This document shows positions 4,027 through 31,270 of a stretch of 64,000 nucleotides of DNA, piece by piece (the stretch's first letter is position 1; every line of letters starts with the position of its first letter). The stretch lies in assembly GCA_021650895.1 (NCBI GenBank), contig CP091278.1, positions 1,889,659-1,953,658 on the forward strand. The letters are read 5' to 3'. Origin of the DNA: Candidatus Jettenia sp. (GTDB lineage: Bacteria > Planctomycetota > Brocadiia > Brocadiales > Brocadiaceae). The position numbers and the translations under genes are program-made. The notes under the pieces are model-generated. The model saw only the letters and a program-made list of their open reading frames with translations, had not been told where the DNA came from and did not search any database.

Positions 4027-5805
4027 ATGATTCCACAAGAAAAGATTACAGAAATTCAGCATGCCTCAGATATTGTTCAAATCATATCAGAGTATATACA
4101 CTTAAAACAAAGCGGAAGAAATTTTATTGGTTTGTGTCCCTTTCACACAGAAAAAACACCTTCTTTTACAGTAAATCCGGAGAAAAAATTCTTTAAGTGC
4201 TTTGGATGTGGCGAAGGTGGAACGGTATTTCACTTTGTCATGAAACAAGAGGGTATAGACTTTATCGAATCTGTAAAATTGGTAGCCTTAAAAGCACATA
4301 TTGATATTACCCACTTAATTCCCACAAAGGCATCCTTTTCTTCTACGGAAAAAACATTCCTGCTTAACATAACTAATTTTGCCACAAGGTTTTATAATAA
4401 AATATTACTTGATAAAGAATCTGGAAGCACTGCAAGAGCTTATTTGCAACAACGACATATAAATAACCAATCTATCAAGACTTTCTGTCTTGGCTATGCC
4501 CCTAACAGTTGGGATGCATTAATAAAAACATGTAAAGAACGTAATATCCCAAATAAATTGTTAGAAAAGGTCGGTCTGGTCATACAAAAAAAAGAAGGAA
4601 ATGGGTATTATGACCGATTTCGCAATAGATTAATATTTCCTATATTAGATATAAAAAAACAAGTTATCGGCTTTGGGGGAAGGACATTAGATGATACAAC
4701 TCCCAAATATCTCAATTCGCCAGAAACTATTCTTTTCAATAAAAGTAATGTACTTTATGGCATCGATATTGCTAAAAATGCTATTTTAAAACAGCATCGA
4801 GTAATACTTATGGAAGGATACACAGATGTAATCATGGCACATCAATATGGCATTGAGTGGTCTGTTGCAGTATTGGGAACAGCTATATCAAAACAACATC
4901 TCAGACATTTAAGGCAATATTGCAATCAGGTAATCCTCCTCTTAGATTCAGATATCGCAGGTTGGAAATCTTCCGATAGAAGTTTAGATATTTTCATAGA
5001 AGAAGAATTTGATGTGAAAATTGCTCAGTTGCCCAAAGATTACGACCCTTGTGATTTCCTTGTGGCAGAAGGTGTCGAAAAATTTCTGACATATATTAAT
5101 AATGCGAAGGATTTTTTTAGCTACAAGGTTAAGATGGCTGCATCTAAGTGGGATATATCAACCATTCATGGAAAGGCAAATGCCATCAATGATGTCCTTG
5201 CCACAGCAATGAAAATGCCCGATATTATCAAACGCAATTTACTCATTAAAAGAATTGCAGAGGAAATGTCTATAGATGAGGCTACTTTGCGAATTCAACA
5301 GAAAAAATTTAATAAAGTTACTGCTTCCGTAAGGAATAAGCAAGTTGCTGAACAAAGATTAGACGCTTCTTCAAGGGCAGAACGAGAACTTTTGTATCTC
5401 ATGCTATCGTGTAATGATCTTATCCCCAGAGTAGTAGAAGAAATAGGCCTGGAAGAATTTAGTAATAAAGACTTTTCAAAAATTGCTCAGAAGGTAGTTG
5501 CGCTATACTATCAAAACAATGTGGTACATGATCAAGATATACTCTATGCACTTGATGATGAAAAATTGAATAAGATATGTATGGATATTGTAACAACAAA
5601 AGAATTTCAGGATATTACAAATCATAAAGAGAGGTTAGAGGCATATGTAGTTTTTTTTAAGAAACAAAACAGCAAGAAAGATATTCACCAAACAAAGAAG
5701 AAAATGTTAGAAATCGTTAAGGCAGGCAGTAACGAGAAAGATATTGTCATGTTGTTAGAAGAATTTCACAAAAAAAGCAGAAATATCCATACCTTAAAAA
5801 AATAA
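4027..5805 (+). CDS. dnaG: DnaG primase
   Basis: DnaG makes RNA primers at the replication fork. The N-terminus has the CHC2 zinc finger (CPFHTEKTPSF ... CFGCGEGG, residues ~38-66). The primase catalytic core follows, with the Toprim motifs EGYTDV and LLLDSDIAG (the family usually has DGDxAG, so the Gly is Ser here). The C-terminal DnaB-binding region is weakly conserved, as usual. The 592-residue length is normal. It is followed by rpoD, the conserved dnaG-rpoD order. A consensus promoter lies just upstream. Confidence 0.97.
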   Translation: MIPQEKITEIQHASDIVQIISEYIHLKQSGRNFIGLCPFHTEKTPSFTVNPEKKFFKCFGCGEGGTVFHFVMKQEGIDFIESVKLVALKAHIDITHLIPTKASFSSTEKTFLLNITNFATRFYNKILLDKESGSTARAYLQQRHINNQSIKTFCLGYAPNSWDALIKTCKERNIPNKLLEKVGLVIQKKEGNGYYDRFRNRLIFPILDIKKQVIGFGGRTLDDTTPKYLNSPETILFNKSNVLYGIDIAKNAILKQHRVILMEGYTDVIMAHQYGIEWSVAVLGTAISKQHLRHLRQYCNQVILLLDSDIAGWKSSDRSLDIFIEEEFDVKIAQLPKDYDPCDFLVAEGVEKFLTYINNAKDFFSYKVKMAASKWDISTIHGKANAINDVLATAMKMPDIIKRNLLIKRIAEEMSIDEATLRIQQKKFNKVTASVRNKQVAEQRLDASSRAERELLYLMLSCNDLIPRVVEEIGLEEFSNKDFSKIAQKVVALYYQNNVVHDQDILYALDDEKLNKICMDIVTTKEFQDITNHKERLEAYVVFFKKQNSKKDIHQTKKKMLEIVKAGSNEKDIVMLLEEFHKKSRNIHTLKK

Positions 5806-22145: not shown

Positions 22146-23069
22146 TTAAACTCCTTTTAATACCCTCTGTGCCAATTCACCTGGTAATTTTGCTTCTAAA
22201 ATTTTTTTTGATGCCGCTTCCGTATTGTAGGACACCCGCTTAAAGCAGAGATGCTTTGAAGAGGAATCAAATACTACATAACAGCCACAAGCGTTTCCAT
22301 CCCTCGGTTGCCCTACGGAACCTACGTTGATATAATATTTCCATCCTTTGCTCAAATCGATATGAAAAGATTCTACTTTATTTGTTGATTCCTTTTCAAT
22401 AAGCATGAGTCTCATATCATAATTGTCTGCTGGAATCAGGACTGAGGCGTTTACTGTTCTTATCTCTTTTGTATAAATATAGGCTGCTGGACGATGAGTG
22501 TGTCCACCAAAGGTTACCTTTGACCATAAATTCGTATATTTCAGTACACCTGCATTCTTCGCATATTCGTATCCTTTCGGATAGGCAGGTGTGCTATGTA
22601 CGATTTCAAATTCTTCCTTACCCAATCTCATCCTTAGTGAAAGGCGTCTTAAAAATTTAAGATTCTTTTTCGTTAAGATATCTTTAGTCCAGTCTATGGC
22701 AATCTTTGCTACCGGATTCATTTCTGTGGTAAGAGACGGCTCACCAACTGCCTCTCTGTCGTGATTCCCGCCAATAGCAATCCCTTTTTTTTCTAATAAC
22801 TGAAAGGCATTCAGTAAGTTGTCTCTTTCTAATGGACTCAAATATGGTTGAGATGATATTTTATATATATTTTCTAAAGAGACTTCCCTCCTACCGTAAA
22901 CTAAATACCGTATAATATCGCAGCACTCATTTGGTGATGCACCATAGCCAACAATATCACCAACAATTAATAACCTATCGATATCATGTTCCTTATCGGC
23001 GATTTCTTTAATTACTGCTAGTAAAGCATCCACATTGCTATGGATATCCGATATAATAACGTTTTTCAT
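22146..23069 (-). CDS. Calcineurin-like metallophosphoesterase
   Basis: The family's metal-binding motifs are all present: DIHSN, GDIVGYG, GNHD and GGHTHRP. Between them are family-typical spacings with an inserted helical segment. The length is 307 residues and it is soluble with no signal peptide. Substrate cannot be told; relatives include phosphodiesterases and protein phosphatases. It begins 28 bp after the atypical protein kinase gene on the same strand, so a kinase-phosphatase pair is likely. Confidence 0.88.
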   Translation of the reverse strand: MKNVIISDIHSNVDALLAVIKEIADKEHDIDRLLIVGDIVGYGASPNECCDIIRYLVYGRREVSLENIYKISSQPYLSPLERDNLLNAFQLLEKKGIAIGGNHDREAVGEPSLTTEMNPVAKIAIDWTKDILTKKNLKFLRRLSLRMRLGKEEFEIVHSTPAYPKGYEYAKNAGVLKYTNLWSKVTFGGHTHRPAAYIYTKEIRTVNASVLIPADNYDMRLMLIEKESTNKVESFHIDLSKGWKYYINVGSVGQPRDGNACGCYVVFDSSSKHLCFKRVSYNTEAASKKILEAKLPGELAQRVLKGV

Positions 23070-23097: not shown

Positions 23098-23907
23098 CTA
23101 AATGATACTACTTAACAATTTTTTTAATTCTTCGGCTGATGAAATCCTGGAAGAAACATGTACCTCTAATAATCCCTGAATAATTTCTTCTAGTTTTTGA
23201 GACACCTGATCGTTTATCTGATGGGGTAAGGTCTTTTCTACTTGCCATAATTTCTTTGTTAGTATTTGATACAATATAAGCCCTATAGAGTACAAGTCTG
23301 TCCTGCCATCGAGCCGAATAGCTGAAGAAATATCCTCATAATGAAATTTTCTTGGTCTGTCTTTTAAATAAGTAAGCATTTGCAATTGTTCCGGTGATGC
23401 ATATTCCTTACTGATCCCTTTAATAATCCCTCCCTTTTTGATAGCTAATTCAAAATCAACAAGGTGCACTAACTTTGTTGTATGGTTAAGAATCAAGTGT
23501 CCGGGTTTTAAATCACAATGAATATAGTTCTTACTATGAAGATATTGCAGAGGATCACAGACGGTAATAAATAATTTGATAATTTCCTCAATAGTTCTGA
23601 TGTCTTCAACATCCTTTTCGTTAAAGTAATCAAGAAGGTCATATCCATTGATGTGCTGCAATACAATAAAATTTTGTTTAATTAAAAATTTTCCATCTTT
23701 GAACAACTCAGCGTGTCCAAAATCGTAAGCTACCGGTATTTGAATATGATTCAGTTCCTTCAATATATAATACTCTTCTGAAAATTCAAAGTCTGGAGAG
23801 TATTTTATTCCCTTTTCCGGCATATCAGTCAAAACGGCATAATTAGACTTATGCAAACTCGCCTGACATTTAAAATCACTAAAATGATATTTATTAATTC
23901 TATACAT
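23098..23907 (-). CDS. Atypical Ser/Thr protein kinase-like protein
   Basis: The C-lobe of a eukaryotic-type kinase is clear: HCDLKP (catalytic Asp132, Lys134), an SPE motif before a long activation-segment insert, and DLYSIGLILYQIL. Three features are unusual. The N-lobe lacks a glycine-rich loop. The metal-binding Asn of HxDLKPxN is His137. DFG is DFE at 151-153. The protein may be catalytically weak or a pseudokinase, although some kinases tolerate such changes. There is no membrane span. It is the first gene of a two-gene unit with the metallophosphoesterase. Confidence 0.8.
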   Translation of the reverse strand: MYRINKYHFSDFKCQASLHKSNYAVLTDMPEKGIKYSPDFEFSEEYYILKELNHIQIPVAYDFGHAELFKDGKFLIKQNFIVLQHINGYDLLDYFNEKDVEDIRTIEEIIKLFITVCDPLQYLHSKNYIHCDLKPGHLILNHTTKLVHLVDFELAIKKGGIIKGISKEYASPEQLQMLTYLKDRPRKFHYEDISSAIRLDGRTDLYSIGLILYQILTKKLWQVEKTLPHQINDQVSQKLEEIIQGLLEVHVSSRISSAEELKKLLSSII

Positions 23908-24497: not shown

Positions 24498-26051
24498 ATG
24501 AAATGTATTTCTAACAAAATAATCGGCATGTGGTTATTGTTAATAACATTAGGGATATTTACTTTAAATTCTGGAGTTGCTCAAGCTGGAGACCCAAATG
24601 GAGCTGAAACATATTCAGACAGCATTGGAGGTTTGAAATATGCTGTTAACTTTACATGGACATTACTGGGAGCTTTTTTAGTATTTAGCATGCAGGCGGG
24701 ATTCACCTTTTTAGGTGGATTTTTAAGACAGAAGAATATGCTGGGTTATATGGCTCACTGCTTCATTGATTCTACTCTTGGGGCAGTTATTTTTTATCTT
24801 TTCGGATTTGCCTTAATGTTTGGTGGCTCGAAACTGGTACCTGGGCTTGATTATGGCAATTCTTTTATTGGATGGGACGGATTTTTCCTGAGTGGAAGAT
24901 CGTACGATGTCCAAACAATTATGTTCTGGCTCTTCCAGATGGTATTTGCAACAAAAACTGTTTCAATTATTGCGGGTGCTGTAGCGGAGAGAATGAAATT
25001 TGTGCCTTATCTTATCTATAGTTGCCTTATGTGCGGCTTAATTTATCCTATTTACGGGCATTGGGTTTGGGGCGGAGGCTGGCTAGGCTCGCTTCCGATT
25101 GGAGCCGGAGTAAAAGATTTTGCGGGTTGTGCTACGGTACATACCGTGGGAGGTATTATGGCACTGGTCGGAGCATGGGCATTGGGTCCAAGGAATGGAA
25201 AGTATAATCCTGACGGTTCACCAAATGCCATTCCAGGTCATAATCTTGTATACGTTGTAATAGGTACCCTTATTCTTGCCTTTGGTTGGTTTGGTTTTAA
25301 TGCGGGCAGCACCTTAGCAGCGACAGATTTGCGTATATCTGTGATTGCAAGCAATACTTTTATAGCCGCTGCAACAGGCGCCTCTATTATGATATTTTTC
25401 ACTTGGGCCAAGATGGGTGTTGTGGACTTACCATTTGTTTGTAATGGCGCCTTAGCAGGATTAGTGGCTATTACAGCACCTTGCGCCTATGTGGCGCCAT
25501 GGGCAGCCGCAGTAATTGGACTTCTCGCTGGCCTAGCGATGAGATGTGCCTTTTGGTTTGTAGAATCTAAGATGAAAATCGATGATCCACTTGGCGCAGT
25601 AGCTGTACATGCAGCCAACGGCATCTGGGGTATGATTGCTGTGGGTATTTTTGCAGATGGCACCTATGGTGGTGTGAGTGGTTTGATTACCGGTTCGGGT
25701 TCACAATTATTGGCACAATTCATTGGAACATTAGTTGCTATAGGATGGTCATTGGCATGGGGTTGCGCCGTATTCTTCTCATTAAAATATACGATAGGTA
25801 TACGGGTATCCGATCTTGTAGAATCTGATGGAGTAGATACCCACATCCATGGTTCTCCTTGTTATCCTGTTGAGCCAGAATTCATTGCTCCCATGGTAGG
25901 AGAGGAAGAAGTTGATATACAACAGGAAAAGAGACAAGCATCTTTACTTGAGGAAGCATTAAGCAGAGACGCTGACAGGGAAAAGATATACTCAGATAAA
26001 CTCGGCCGATGGGTATATGCCAGGCTTAAAACGGATACGAAAAGGCGATAA
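24498..26051 (+). CDS. amtB: Ammonium transporter Amt (first copy, long C-tail)
   Basis: Amt proteins form trimeric membrane channels for ammonium/ammonia. I start at ATG 24498, which has GAGAGG 8 nt upstream and begins a signal peptide ending AQA; an in-frame TTG at 24441 is less likely. The conserved Asp (VKDFAG), the twin pore histidines (ATVHTVGG; VAVHAANG) and GFNAGST are present, in a core with ~11 predicted spans. The cytoplasmic tail is unusually long (~65 residues after the last span) and acidic/basic helical. A PII gene follows 53 bp downstream, the usual amtB-glnK arrangement. Confidence 0.95.
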   Translation: MKCISNKIIGMWLLLITLGIFTLNSGVAQAGDPNGAETYSDSIGGLKYAVNFTWTLLGAFLVFSMQAGFTFLGGFLRQKNMLGYMAHCFIDSTLGAVIFYLFGFALMFGGSKLVPGLDYGNSFIGWDGFFLSGRSYDVQTIMFWLFQMVFATKTVSIIAGAVAERMKFVPYLIYSCLMCGLIYPIYGHWVWGGGWLGSLPIGAGVKDFAGCATVHTVGGIMALVGAWALGPRNGKYNPDGSPNAIPGHNLVYVVIGTLILAFGWFGFNAGSTLAATDLRISVIASNTFIAAATGASIMIFFTWAKMGVVDLPFVCNGALAGLVAITAPCAYVAPWAAAVIGLLAGLAMRCAFWFVESKMKIDDPLGAVAVHAANGIWGMIAVGIFADGTYGGVSGLITGSGSQLLAQFIGTLVAIGWSLAWGCAVFFSLKYTIGIRVSDLVESDGVDTHIHGSPCYPVEPEFIAPMVGEEEVDIQQEKRQASLLEEALSRDADREKIYSDKLGRWVYARLKTDTKRR

Positions 26052-26077: not shown

Positions 26078-26443
<366 letters not shown>

Positions 26444-26529: not shown

Positions 26530-27894
26530 TTGAGACAATACTTTTTTGTATTCACATTATTCATCGGATTACTGATTTTCCTGGTTAAAAGTACCTTCGC
26601 CGGAGATCCGGGAGGCACCCGAACCTATTCTGATAGCATATTAGGATTAAAATTTTCTGTAAATTTTGCATGGACATTGCTCTGCGCCTTTTTAGTCTTT
26701 AACATGCAGGCAGGCTTCACTTTTCTTGGTGCTGGTTTTCTTCAAAAGAAAAATACACTCAATTATCTGGCAATGAGCTTTGCAGATTTTTGTATTGGAT
26801 CAATTGTATTTTGGTTATTTGGTTTTGCATTGATGTTTGGTGGCTCAAAGCTGGCACCTGGACTCTCTTGGGGAAATCAATTTATTGGTTATAGTGGATT
26901 TTTACTTATCGGAGATTCCTATGATGTATCCGCATCTGTACTTTGGATATTCCAGATGATGTTTGCCGCCTCTGCTTGCACAATTGTAACAGGCGCTGTT
27001 GCAGAGAGAATTAAGTTTCATATACACATTATTTATAGCGCATTCTTATGCGGCGTGATCTACCCTTTGTTTGGACATTGGATGTGGGGTAAAGGATGGT
27101 TAGAATTGCTACCCTTTGGAGTAGGTGCAAGAGATTTCGCAGGTTCAGGTGTCGTACACGGAATGGGTGGTTTAATTGCTTTTGTCGCAGCATGGATGAT
27201 AGGTCCCAGATTTGGGAAATATAATCCGGATGGTAGTCCGAATGTAATACAAGGTCATAATATGGTATATATTGTGATTGGGACCCTTATTTTAATTTTT
27301 GGATGGTTTGGTTTCAATGCAGGCAGCACACTTGCTGTCACAGAATTAAGGATAGCTGTTGTTAGTGTAAACACCTTCTTATCTGCTATTGCTGGCGCTA
27401 TTACCCTTCTCTATTTTTCCTATTTTAAAACAACAAAATCCGATGTTATAATGACTTGTAACGGGGCATTAGCAGGTTGTGTAGCAATTACAGCATCCGG
27501 AGCTTATGTACCTCATTGGGCAGCAATTATAATTGGGGTTATTGCAAGTTTAATCACAAGAACTTCGCTCTATTTTATCGAAAGTAAACTAAAGATTGAT
27601 GATCCTGTTGGCGCCATATCTGTACACGGAGCAAATGGAATTTGGGGTTTACTTTCGGTTGGAATTTTCTCTGATGGGACATATGGTGGTGTAAGAGGTT
27701 TAATCACCGGTTCAGGTTGGCAATTGTTAGCTCAATTTATTGCTTGTGTAACATTAGTAACTTGGTGTCTTGTGGCTGGTTTTTTGTTTTTCTTTGCACT
27801 TAAACGTTTTTTTGGGTTAAGGGTGCCAGTAAATATAGAACGTTCTGGTATCGATATTTATGAACATGGGGCAAGTTGTTATCCTGGATTATAA
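26530..27894 (+). CDS. amtB: Ammonium transporter Amt (second copy, no PII partner)
   Basis: The start is TTG with AAGGA 6 nt upstream, opening a signal peptide that ends near TFAGD. The pore Asp (ARDFAG) and both His (GVVHGMGG; ISVHGANG) are kept, as is GFNAGST. It is a close paralogue of the first copy over the whole core, so the two probably arose by duplication, but it lacks that copy's long C-terminal extension (454 residues). No PII gene follows. It may share the upstream PII. Confidence 0.94.
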   Translation: MRQYFFVFTLFIGLLIFLVKSTFAGDPGGTRTYSDSILGLKFSVNFAWTLLCAFLVFNMQAGFTFLGAGFLQKKNTLNYLAMSFADFCIGSIVFWLFGFALMFGGSKLAPGLSWGNQFIGYSGFLLIGDSYDVSASVLWIFQMMFAASACTIVTGAVAERIKFHIHIIYSAFLCGVIYPLFGHWMWGKGWLELLPFGVGARDFAGSGVVHGMGGLIAFVAAWMIGPRFGKYNPDGSPNVIQGHNMVYIVIGTLILIFGWFGFNAGSTLAVTELRIAVVSVNTFLSAIAGAITLLYFSYFKTTKSDVIMTCNGALAGCVAITASGAYVPHWAAIIIGVIASLITRTSLYFIESKLKIDDPVGAISVHGANGIWGLLSVGIFSDGTYGGVRGLITGSGWQLLAQFIACVTLVTWCLVAGFLFFFALKRFFGLRVPVNIERSGIDIYEHGASCYPGL

Positions 27895-28379
27895 TTTAAA
27901 AATCTAAATAAGACACATCTTCACAACAGATACTTTTAGAAATGCTATGAGGATTAGCCGTTTTGTAACCTAACTTCTATAAATAAGTTATGTTAAAGTA
28001 TATGGTTAAATTTTTAGAGCTTTTCATAAGTAAGCCCTGTTCTCTTCTCTTTTTCCTTTCCATTATTTTAATTCCTTGTATCTCATCTTTATTATAATTG
28101 TTTTGGTTTTAATCAACCATTTAGAGATTCAGCAAATATTGTGCAACACAATAACGATTAACTGTAAATAAGTATTATGTTGTTTAACCATAATTGCATA
28201 TAACATTATTTTTTAAAATATAATCTTTAGGTATAAAATTTGTTAGGTATATCTATAAAACTTATATTTCTTAAAATAATTATTACCATTGTTCAACATA
28301 CTATAGATTTTAGCCCAATCAACTCAGGTATTAGTTAATGGTTTTTGCCTCATATAACTACAGAACTGGAGGCTTATAT
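27895..28379. other. AT-rich intergenic gap, no gene seen
   Basis: About 480 bp of strongly AT-rich sequence separates the second amt from the diheme protein. I see no coding frame, no hairpin with a T run and no consensus promoter. A GGAGG at 28369-28374 belongs to the next gene. Confidence 0.4.
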
Positions 28380-29324
28380 ATGCTTAACCATAAATTTCTC
28401 TTCTGTTTTTTGATACTACTTCTTATTCATGTACTCGTAGCTTTTTCTGCATTCTCGCAAAATTATGTAATCAACGGAGTTCTGGAAGAAAATGATCTTG
28501 AAATAGAAATTAAAGATAGTATTGTTCGCAAAGAATCCTTAACCATTAAAGATCATCGGGTTTATATTCAGGTAGTACTCGATGAGGGTGCAAGGAATAT
28601 TGCAAATCATAAAAGATATAAAGAGAGGTTTTATCTACTTCCAAAGGAAGTAGTTTATGACGACGGAAGTAAACATATTTTTTATTATAAGGATAATACA
28701 GAAATCGAGATAGGAAAGGTAAAAAGTTTTTTAGGTTTTATGCCCTATATCACTTTAGCTGAAGGTGTAATGATAGTAAGCTCCCCTACCGATGCTAAGT
28801 TATCGATTTCACGAGCTAACAACTATCAGGATATTCCAAAATCAATAATACATTCTGAACAGTGTATGGAAGCAACTTTACGTAAGAAGTGCGGCCAGTG
28901 CCATATATTGGAATATATATTTTCACACAAAAAGTGGATTGAGGAAGATATCCTGCATGCATTTAATAGGCTGCAGATGGAAAAAGAAGAAAGGCTTACT
29001 GAAGATGAACAGAAAATAATTGATTTGTTCAAAAAATACCAAAAAGGCGAAGTCGATAAAGAAAAGCTTGCTGAATTTACAACACTAAAACAAATCGGAA
29101 AAAATGACATAGTTAATTTTACAAAAGACATTTATATGAATAATTGCGTACCTTGCCATAATCCATCAAAGATAACGGACGTTTCTCTGCTCTACTCAAA
29201 ACGGAAATGTAAAAGTATCGTTGAACGAATAAAGGAAAAAGAACCGTCTCTCTTTTTACAAAAAGATATGGATAGTTTAGCCAGCTATTTATGGGAAATA
29301 AAGCTCAGGCCATGTAAGAATTAA
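28380..29324 (+). CDS. Secreted diheme c-type cytochrome-like protein
   Basis: I start at ATG 28380 because GGAGG lies 7 nt upstream and a clear signal peptide follows (hydrophobic run, cleavage near FSQ). The mature protein (~288 residues) has a mostly beta-like N-terminal half. Two heme-c motifs, CGQCH at 171-175 and CVPCH at 256-260, are separated by a Lys/Glu-rich helical segment. It is probably periplasmic or anammoxosomal, with covalent heme. I do not recognise the family. It lies alone between amt genes, which is unusual and may tie electron transfer to ammonium uptake. That link is inference. Confidence 0.78.
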   Translation: MLNHKFLFCFLILLLIHVLVAFSAFSQNYVINGVLEENDLEIEIKDSIVRKESLTIKDHRVYIQVVLDEGARNIANHKRYKERFYLLPKEVVYDDGSKHIFYYKDNTEIEIGKVKSFLGFMPYITLAEGVMIVSSPTDAKLSISRANNYQDIPKSIIHSEQCMEATLRKKCGQCHILEYIFSHKKWIEEDILHAFNRLQMEKEERLTEDEQKIIDLFKKYQKGEVDKEKLAEFTTLKQIGKNDIVNFTKDIYMNNCVPCHNPSKITDVSLLYSKRKCKSIVERIKEKEPSLFLQKDMDSLASYLWEIKLRPCKN

Positions 29325-29430
29325 ATTCATATTTTCATGAAAGGAGGTGATGAAACGGTATGCCTTACATGATTGTCTTTTAATGAGAATTGTTTCGTTC
29401 CATGGTATTGATGTTATTATAGCTCTTTAG

Positions 29431-29446
29431 TGGCAGTAAAGTAGCA
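29431..29446 (+). promoter_or_regulatory. Candidate sigma-54 (-24/-12) promoter for third amt
   Basis: TGGCAG, 5 bp, then TAGCA gives the GG-N10-GC spacing required for sigma-54. It is 50 bp upstream of the third amt start. amtB-glnK operons are often sigma-54 dependent, and an NtrC-type regulator is encoded at 18327. One mismatch falls in the -12 element (TAGCA for TTGCA). Confidence 0.5.
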
Positions 29447-29495
29447 GCAGTAGTAGTAAGAGGGTATTAACTTATAACTTTAAAAGGAGACGACA

Positions 29496-30836
29496 ATGAG
29501 AAAAGAAGCTATTCTAGGCATTTCGTCGATTTTTGCATTATCGATGATAGCACTTTTTGCATCAGACGCGATAGCACAAGATGCACCAAAAATTGACACA
29601 GGGGATAATGCATGGTTGCTTGCATCCGCAGCGCTCGTTTTAATCATGACACCAGGTCTAGCCTTATTTTATGGAGGTATGGTAAGGGCCAAGAATATGG
29701 CGAACACACTTTGGTTAAGTTTTATTGTTATTTGTATTATAAGTATACAGTGGATACTCTGGGGCTATAGCTTGTCTTTTGCGCCAGCTAACTGGTTTAT
29801 TGGCGGTCTTGGATGGTGTGGACTTGGAGCAGGTGCTGTTGGACAAGCACCGAGTGATATTTACGCTACAACAGTGCCACACCTCTCATTCATGATGTTT
29901 CAATGTATGTTTGCTATTATTACCCCTGCACTTATGACAGGTGCTTTCGTAGAAAGATTTAAATTTAATGCATGGTTATTATTCATACCCTTATGGGCAA
30001 CCGCAGTATATGCGCCAATAGCACATTGGGTATGGGCCATAGACGGCTGGCTGCTAAAAATAGGTTCATTGGACTTTGCTGGCGGAACAGTTGTCCATAT
30101 CTGTTCAGGCGCCTCAGCGCTATCCCTGATTTTATTTGTCGGAAAACGGAAAGGATATCCAAAAGAGGTAAAACCTCCTCATAATCTTCCCTTTATGATG
30201 TTAGGTACCGGTTTACTATGGTTTGGCTGGTTTGGTTTCAACGCTGGTAGCGCAGTTGCTGCCAATGGATTAGCTGCAAGTGCTTTCGTTGTCACCAATA
30301 CAGCTGCAGGTGCTGCAGGATTTACCTGGTCTGTTATGGAATGGATCTACCATAAGAAACCCACCTTACTTGGCGTTTGTTCAGGTGCAGTTGCTGGTTT
30401 GGTTGCTATTACACCAGCCTCAGGTTTTGTAGGTCCTATGGCATCAATTGCAATAGGAGTTGGTTCCGGAGTAATATGTTTCTATTGTGTAACAAAGATG
30501 AAAAAAGCTTTAGGTTATGATGATGCCCTTGATGTTATTGGCATCCATGCAATGGGTGGAACATGGGGCGCCTTTGCAACAGGCATCTTTTGTAGTACTT
30601 CTGTAAATCCTGCTGGCTTTGACGGCGCAATCTATGGTAATATTGCTCAACTGGGAAAACAATGGGCAGGTATTCTGGCTGCATGGGGATGGGCTTTTGG
30701 AATTACTTCACTTTTAGCCTGGTTTGTAAATGCGGTAATTGGTTTAAGGCCGACGGAGGCAGAAGAAACCACTGGCATGGATATTACCCAACACAAAGAA
30801 ATCGCTTACCATTTTTATGAAACAGAACAGGCTTAA
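29496..30836 (+). CDS. amtB: Ammonium transporter AmtB (third copy, canonical type)
   Basis: The start has AAAGGAG 7-8 nt upstream and encodes a signal peptide ending AIAQD. The core is close to classic AmtB: FYGGMVRAKN, the pore Asp (SLDFAGG), His in TVVHICSG and IGIHAMGG, and GFNAGSA. It differs clearly from the other two copies, which resemble each other. The length is 446 residues with ~11 spans. A PII gene follows 95 bp downstream and a sigma-54-like promoter precedes it. Confidence 0.96.
   Translation: MRKEAILGISSIFALSMIALFASDAIAQDAPKIDTGDNAWLLASAALVLIMTPGLALFYGGMVRAKNMANTLWLSFIVICIISIQWILWGYSLSFAPANWFIGGLGWCGLGAGAVGQAPSDIYATTVPHLSFMMFQCMFAIITPALMTGAFVERFKFNAWLLFIPLWATAVYAPIAHWVWAIDGWLLKIGSLDFAGGTVVHICSGASALSLILFVGKRKGYPKEVKPPHNLPFMMLGTGLLWFGWFGFNAGSAVAANGLAASAFVVTNTAAGAAGFTWSVMEWIYHKKPTLLGVCSGAVAGLVAITPASGFVGPMASIAIGVGSGVICFYCVTKMKKALGYDDALDVIGIHAMGGTWGAFATGIFCSTSVNPAGFDGAIYGNIAQLGKQWAGILAAWGWAFGITSLLAWFVNAVIGLRPTEAEETTGMDITQHKEIAYHFYETEQA

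Positions 30837-30931: not shown

Positions 30932-31270
<339 letters not shown>

Follow-up and report, generated by a model that had tools for sequence, protein, structure and literature searches.

The gene of a predicted two-domain diheme cytochrome nearly always accompanies one clade of ammonium transporter genes in anammox bacteria

The Gene Cluster

The window analysed here is a stretch of 64,000 nucleotides, positions 1889659-1953658 of the 3.82-Mb single-contig genome of a Candidatus Jettenia species. Embedded in one of its clusters of ammonium transporter (amt) genes is a gene referred to below as CYT. The closest named match of its protein is in Candidatus Jettenia ecosi (96%), and the genome carries hydrazine synthase alpha (PF18582), as do 40 of the order's 62 genomes; the organism is therefore an anammox bacterium.

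A preliminary description of this DNA had reported a 314-residue protein with the motifs CGQCH and CVPCH, a strong ribosome site of its own and amt genes on both sides. All of these are present. The reading frame runs from 28380 to 29324 on the plus strand, with GGAGG shortly before its ATG; two Amt genes (PF00909) and a PII gene (PF00543) come before it, and an Amt and a PII gene come after. The gene order is amtA, PII, amtB, CYT, amtC, PII, all on the plus strand. CYT starts 485 nt past amtB and ends 171 nt short of amtC.

24498-26051, +: amtA (PF00909; Pfam, neighbourhoods)
26105-26443, +: PII regulator (PF00543) between amtA and amtB (Pfam, neighbourhoods)
26530-27894, +: amtB (PF00909; Pfam, neighbourhoods)
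28368-28372, +: GGAGG, the CYT ribosome site (sequence)
28380-29324, +: CYT, a two-domain diheme c-type cytochrome of 314 residues, predicted to be exported, partner gene of amtC (sequence, neighbourhoods in genomes of the order)
28380-28460, +: signal-peptide-like hydrophobic N-terminal helix, residues 1-27 (sequence; AF2 helix 4-23)
28461-28820, +: N-domain, beta-rich, residues 28-147, recurring fused to a Na+/H+ antiporter in genome G010 (AF2, profile search, alignment)
28821-29321, +: diheme domain, residues 148-314, distantly QHNDH-alpha-like (profile and Pfam comparison)
28890-28904, +: CGQCH, heme motif 1, residues 171-175 (sequence)
29145-29159, +: CVPCH, heme motif 2, residues 256-260 (sequence)
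29325-29495, +: CYT-amtC leader, with AAAGGAGGTGAT at 29340-29351 (sequence, comparison of 31 loci)
29496-30836, +: amtC, type I ammonium transporter (PF00909), constant neighbour of CYT (Pfam, neighbourhoods)
30932-31270, +: PII regulator (PF00543) downstream of amtC (Pfam, neighbourhoods)

Beside amtA, and divergent from it, lie genes for a calcineurin-like phosphoesterase and a Hanks-type protein kinase (22146-23069 and 23098-23907, both on the minus strand). The pair is also found there in several relatives, and copies of the kinase adjoin the type II amtC genes (described below) of genomes G059 and G044. Such neighbours could possibly provide phosphorylation control of the amt cluster. 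Between positions 23900 and 31700 no Rfam family matched at E<=1. Promoter and terminator scans did no better than on shuffled sequences.

The Diheme Domain

The two heme motifs of CYT lie 85 residues apart within residues 148-314. Two CxxCH motifs appeared in none of 20000 shuffles of the protein's own residues, and in a 37-row alignment each of the 36 rows covering the motifs retains both. From its sequence, CYT is predicted to be loaded with two hemes.

Outside these motifs, the preliminary description had called the sequence unrecognised. This is correct for the window protein, which has no Pfam match at E<=0.01 (neither PF09098 nor PF13442) and no notable NCBIfam or PDB sequence match. 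It does not extend to the family, whose heme part is akin to cytochromes of class I and of the type found in quinohemoprotein amine dehydrogenase (QHNDH), a kinship that becomes visible through divergent members and the family profile. The homologue in genome G060 scores 28.8 bits against PF09098 (cut-off 25.2), and this family is matched at E<=0.01 by 4 of 34 members; PF13442 is matched at the same threshold by 13 of 34. A profile of the family together with its distant anammox relatives (A4) finds QHNDH alpha with E=1.1e-7 (1jmx) and E=5e-7 (1jju), values to which the distant rows contribute. Two other models are scored below their cut-offs. The model of the whole QHNDH alpha subunit, TIGR03908 (cut-off 274.35 bits), gives 35.3 bits for G060 and 20 for G061, both by the heme part only, and the window protein is unlisted; the SorB-type cytochrome model NF052246 (cut-off 93 bits) gives 12.1 for the window protein, 53.6 for G060 and 25.5 for G061. 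The window protein does not reach the cut-off of any curated family whose role is known.

Two histidines specific to CYT are nearly invariant, H183 in 35 of 36 rows and H193 in 35 of 35. Cys277 is found in 35 of 36 rows, at a position where most relatives have Trp. Met284, the usual distal methionine of heme 2, persists in 29 of 36 rows; Ile replaces it in four (three Jettenia rows and G033) and Leu in three. Nearly invariant in the alignment with relatives, it has been lost in three CYT lineages. These residues suggest that heme 1 is probably ligated by two histidines and that the ligation of heme 2 may be variable.

AF2 models of the heme part are weak, with pLDDT of 33-57 by block in the model of the whole protein and a mean of 57.8 for the heme domain with 14 distant rows. 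Because of this, ligands and docking are not readable from them. In Foldseek and VIA-align searches with these weak models, no match exceeded Z 5.5 or stood out from the rest, and the lack of QHNDH among the matches is no test of the kinship described above.

The N-Terminal Domain

Residues 1-27 of CYT are signal-like, with a hydrophobic helix at residues 4-23 in the AF2 model. Hemes of the c type are attached outside the cytoplasm. Given this need and the hydrophobic N-terminus, CYT is probably exported.

The N-domain that follows (residues 28-147) is beta-rich, is modelled with pLDDT of about 56-90 by block, and has no match above background among solved structures. The domain is new, and elsewhere it was found only in an antiporter fusion. 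In genome G010 it forms part of a 598-residue protein (L143:3077-4873, minus strand), where it stands in front of a CPA2-type Na+/H+ exchanger. Its match there has E=9.7e-12 with a profile made without that row (A1) and E=5.8e-5 with the window protein alone; the antiporter part matches PF00999 at E=1e-34. Searching 75 genomes with the N-domain profile revealed no further architecture, apart from one weak match (G007, E=0.0026). In G033, a related antiporter (L149; 52% over the membrane portion) bears a PepSY-type domain where the G010 protein has the N-domain. This antiporter group therefore carries exchangeable outer domains. Taken together, the one fusion, the one neighbourhood of the G060 homologue in a phosphate-uptake locus and the linkage to amt suggest that the N-domain may serve at membrane transporters.

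Occurrence of CYT

Some match to the window protein at E<=0.01 is found in 50 of the 62 genomes of the order. Orthologues, with 58-97% identity over at least 180 residues, are found in 34 of them, and a fragment at a contig end in G042 (89%) brings the number to 35. Left out of this count are two divergent homologues, in G061 (42%) and G060 (31%), and a set of matches with 20-32% identity at residues of about 160-310. The latter are different diheme and multiheme proteins, which make up an anammox family of their own.

In the 13 genomes that represent the rest of the class, the CYT family profile had no match at E<=1e-12. Among 392 genomes of the phylum, with at most five candidates scored per genome, it had no match at E<=1e-6 beyond the order. 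The family is therefore so far restricted to this order. CYT is present in most Brocadiaceae-type genomes (family f1) and in several of family f3, most sampled carriers belonging to one family; it is absent from the model species K. stuttgartiensis.

The divergent homologues have other surroundings. That of G060 (L059/L147, about 4311-5051, plus strand) belongs to a pst phosphate-uptake locus, where it comes immediately after phoU and is followed by two porin-like genes, the neighbours being named from their sequences. That of G061 (L057:1242-2204, minus strand) lies beside hslVU and type II secretion genes, in a genome (77% complete) with no hydrazine synthase match and no AmtC of either type.

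Linkage to One Type of AmtC

The orthologues do not lie mostly outside amt loci. Of the 35 genomes, 32 have CYT immediately upstream of amtC, on the same strand and 111-315 nt away. Two of the other three are cut by contig ends, 90 nt after CYT in G006 and inside CYT in G034. The third is a real exception: the CYT of G059 (67%) is located on an 11-kb contig without amt.

Every partner belongs to a single type, called type I here, with 61-99% identity to the AmtC of the window. The window AmtC scores above the family cut-off (PF00909, TIGR00836; 471.4 against 343.3 bits), and type I aligns over its full length to solved Amt-1 and AmtB structures (2b2f, E=2e-104); it keeps what we take to be the transport residues. 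Type I is found in 35 of the 62 genomes, and CYT is present in all 32 in which its 5' flank is assembled on the same contig. In the remaining genomes the contig is cut inside amtC (G024 and G011) or CYT and amtC are on different contigs (G006). Both genes occur in 33 genomes, CYT only in 2, type I only in 2 and neither in 25 (Fisher 7.5e-13, in a test that ignores relatedness and scores G060 and G061 as lacking CYT). The pair is found across two families at 58-97% protein identity, and stays together where amtA or amtB is missing or rearranged (G010, G005, G007, G029, G030).

A contrast to type I is provided by its sister, type II, which is 53-57% identical to the window AmtC and occurs in 20 of the 62 genomes. 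In the type II loci whose flank was read (G031, G059, G044 and G029), PII stands in front and there is no CYT; in the remaining type II genomes, gene coordinates place no CYT beside the type II gene. Two genomes, G029 and G030 (L051, L052), have both types 8-10 kb apart, with CYT beside type I. The complete genome G031, of the same genus, lacks CYT and type I and keeps amtA, amtB and type II. It is presumably K. stuttgartiensis, since its amt-PII-amt-PII-amt layout matches the one described in the available text of PMC7438415; G029 and G030 would accordingly belong to Kuenenia as well. Finally, G032 (genus g7) and G016 (genus g3) lack CYT and AmtC of either type, both of which their congeners have.

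From the contrast between the types and from these joint losses it follows that CYT goes with AmtC type I rather than with the amt cluster in general. The preliminary description had placed CYT in an amt cluster; the association with amt is thus upheld, but it is narrower than was proposed. It is also more general than the single window, CYT being the fixed partner gene of one Amt clade. Its linkage to amtC type I can be stated with good confidence. When the sampled sequences are placed on a tree, type II is one clade with support of 100, and type I as one clade is neither rejected nor shown (p-AU 0.37); a gain of CYT on type I is therefore indistinguishable from a loss on type II. Fifteen alignment columns separate the two types, several of them presumably in outward-facing loops, and these are too weak to serve as a docking map.

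A Putative Minigene in the Leader

The stretch between CYT and amtC was compared in 31 loci (L045-L081). Two of these are identical (L060 and L064, the same sequence in two MAGs and probably a contaminant contig), and G010 and G004, in which the start of AmtC is ambiguous, are left out. In 20 of the 31, a strong ribosome site precedes a minimal reading frame made up of start codon, single sense codon and stop codon, as against a mean of 0.85 and a maximum of 4 in shuffled sequences, although related sequences are not independent. Its forms include ATG ACA TAG, ATG AAA TAA and GTG ACA TAA, among others: the sense codon varies, whereas start, stop and spacing hold. This putative minigene is conserved in several genera, roughly 75-120 nt ahead of the amtC start. 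One strict form of it occurs at 0-2 sites per genome in seven genomes, with the amtC leader among them in G015 and G038, and it is therefore no general feature of the genome. In the window itself the minigene is absent; there, AAAGGAGGTGAT (29340-29351) is an orphan strong ribosome site, with no start codon at the usual distance. Apparent inverted repeats had also suggested a structured riboswitch in the leader, an idea that was dropped when RNAalifold found no common fold.

Two-codon minigenes that raise the expression of a downstream gene are known from axe-txe and LEE1 ler, according to the portion of PMC8708949 that was available. Those described there share the ribosome site, ATG, single codon and stop upstream of a gene. 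The putative minigenes reported here differ in lying in an amt leader and in being conserved in several genera.

Comparison with Known Systems

CYT accompanies PII in the locus and does not replace it. We know of no heme in the small-protein inhibitor of ammonium transport of Methanosarcina mazei. That inhibitor resembles CYT in being a non-PII partner of Amt and differs in being a small protein (PMC10714827, consulted in excerpt). PII/GlnK, like CYT, is a partner protein encoded beside amt; unlike CYT, which has heme motifs and is predicted to be extracytoplasmic, it is cytoplasmic and senses metabolites (PMC7438415, available text).

The amt genes of K. stuttgartiensis, kustc1009-kustc1015, have the same amtA-PII-amtB layout followed by amtC. 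They differ in that their AmtC (kustc1015) is type II, with PII in front and no CYT. The available text of PMC7438415 describes them as induced by ammonium limitation and as probably one operon. In an anammox-granule metatranscriptome, the homologue of kustc1015 is on its own transcript contig of 2806 nt, apart from the 1009-1012 pair (PMC4913261, excerpt). That length is similar to the 2891 nt spanned by CYT, amtC and PII in the window, a resemblance that is suggestive only.

The diheme domain of the alpha subunit of QHNDH (PF09098; 1jmx, 1jju) also has two CxxCH motifs in one small domain, with a similar pattern. In contrast to it, CYT has an extra N-domain, no QHNDH body and its own H183 and H193; the RM methionines are lost in several CYT lineages, and the window protein falls below PF09098 detection.

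Possible Functions

The preliminary description had proposed that CYT couples electron transfer to ammonium supply or senses redox. This is partly supported, in that the linkage to amt is fixed; either role of CYT itself is conjectural. The explanation favoured here, tentatively, is that CYT is a dedicated extracytoplasmic redox partner of AmtC type I. After export, CYT would carry two hemes and reside in the periplasm or in the lumen of the anammoxosome. Its N-domain would dock it on the outer face of AmtC, and its diheme domain would exchange electrons with the soluble cytochrome pool. The oxidation state of CYT, or a ligand bound at heme 2 with its variable ligation, might then alter ammonium conductance; alternatively, CYT might keep the AmtC channel close to its consumers in respiration. 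On the cytoplasmic face, PII would respond to carbon and nitrogen status, and on the opposite face CYT would respond to respiratory status.

This explanation agrees with the linkage in 32 of 35 genomes, with the 32 of 32 assembled type I flanks, and with the fact that type II is never beside CYT. It also agrees with the pairing with type I in G029 and G030, the joint absence in G031, the N-domain of the G010 antiporter, the pst locus of the G060 homologue, and the strong conservation of CYT, including its heme motifs, H183 and H193. On the other side, no amt is found on the contig of the G059 orthologue or beside the G061 and G060 homologues, the antiporter fusion is a single case (the G033 antiporter having a PepSY-type domain), K. 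stuttgartiensis manages without CYT, and the AF2 heme part is too weak for ligands or docking to be read. The homologues away from amt would suit an ordinary soluble respiratory electron carrier, co-expressed with ammonium uptake and making no contact with AmtC, so that electron flow and substrate supply would rise together. Its heme domain belongs to a widespread superfamily of anammox diheme and triheme cytochromes and to the class-I/QHNDH-type domains, as might be expected of a carrier. However, nothing requires a plain carrier to follow one Amt clade and be missing next to its sister clade, or to have a 120-residue extra domain in common with an ion antiporter. It is a serious alternative, if on balance a doubtful one.

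Linkage and joint loss could also reflect plain co-inheritance of neighbours, CYT and amtC type I being inherited and lost as one block without any shared function. Most sampled carriers are of one family, the co-occurrence test takes no account of relatedness, and G032 and G016 lack CYT together with both AmtC types. Yet the pair is intact in two families, at 58-97% identity, while amtA and amtB are missing or rearranged around it, and co-inheritance as the sole explanation is unlikely. Equally improbable is that CYT is a heme sensor of NO, hydroxylamine or hydrazine, which would bind its ligand at an open or weak sixth site of heme 2 and tell AmtC to halt ammonium entry when intermediates accumulate. 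Ile or Leu at position 284 in seven of 36 rows (4 and 3, Jettenia included), the lack of a His after heme 2 in nearly all rows and the near-invariant Cys277 in place of the relatives' Trp would fit such a site, but 29 of 36 rows retain Met284, a further Met at position 297 is common, and with the present AF2 models the ligands are guesses. That the heme domain is distantly akin to QHNDH alpha (1jmx, 1jju; PF09098 in 4 of 34 members) could point to an electron-acceptor subunit of a QHNDH-like amine or ammonium dehydrogenase. This is highly improbable: the rest of CYT is the N-domain and not a QHNDH body, TIGR03908 scores of two members are far below cut-off, and the flanking genes read encode Amt, PII, kinase, phosphatase and housekeeping proteins.

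Significance

What is new is the two-domain make-up of CYT and its place as the fixed partner gene of one Amt clade; a redox role is a hypothesis. As far as it was searched, and in the parts of it that were available, the literature on ammonium transport in anammox bacteria contained no report of CYT; the detailed Amt studies found there concern K. stuttgartiensis, a species without it. Genomes with both AmtC types (G029, G030) and the genome with type II only (G031) provide a natural comparison pair for physiology.

Three of the four ammonium transporters were predicted by Medema et al. to be anammoxosomal (PMC2881027, excerpt). According to the available text of PMC7438415, it is hard to picture PII controlling an Amt located in the anammoxosome membrane, which is an acknowledged problem, and the regulation of dissimilatory ammonium import is not known. 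These reports, like the rise of the K. stuttgartiensis amt operon under ammonium limitation, would fit a CYT placed opposite PII on AmtC. In the strongest form of the explanation favoured here, AmtC type I and CYT would be a redox-gated ammonium channel: the N-domain would hold CYT at the extracytoplasmic mouth of the Amt trimer, and the oxidation state of the cytochrome pool or a ligand of heme 2 would open or close the flow. This form is unlikely; if it is true, the N-domain would be a general extracytoplasmic module for regulating transporters.

How ammonium passes across the several membranes of anammox bacteria, matched to respiration and not to assimilation, is an open question. The pairing described here suggests that ammonium traffic in these bacteria may be linked to electron transfer or to redox state. 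With its gene so constantly beside that of one Amt clade, CYT is a concrete candidate for the missing link between ammonium traffic and respiration.
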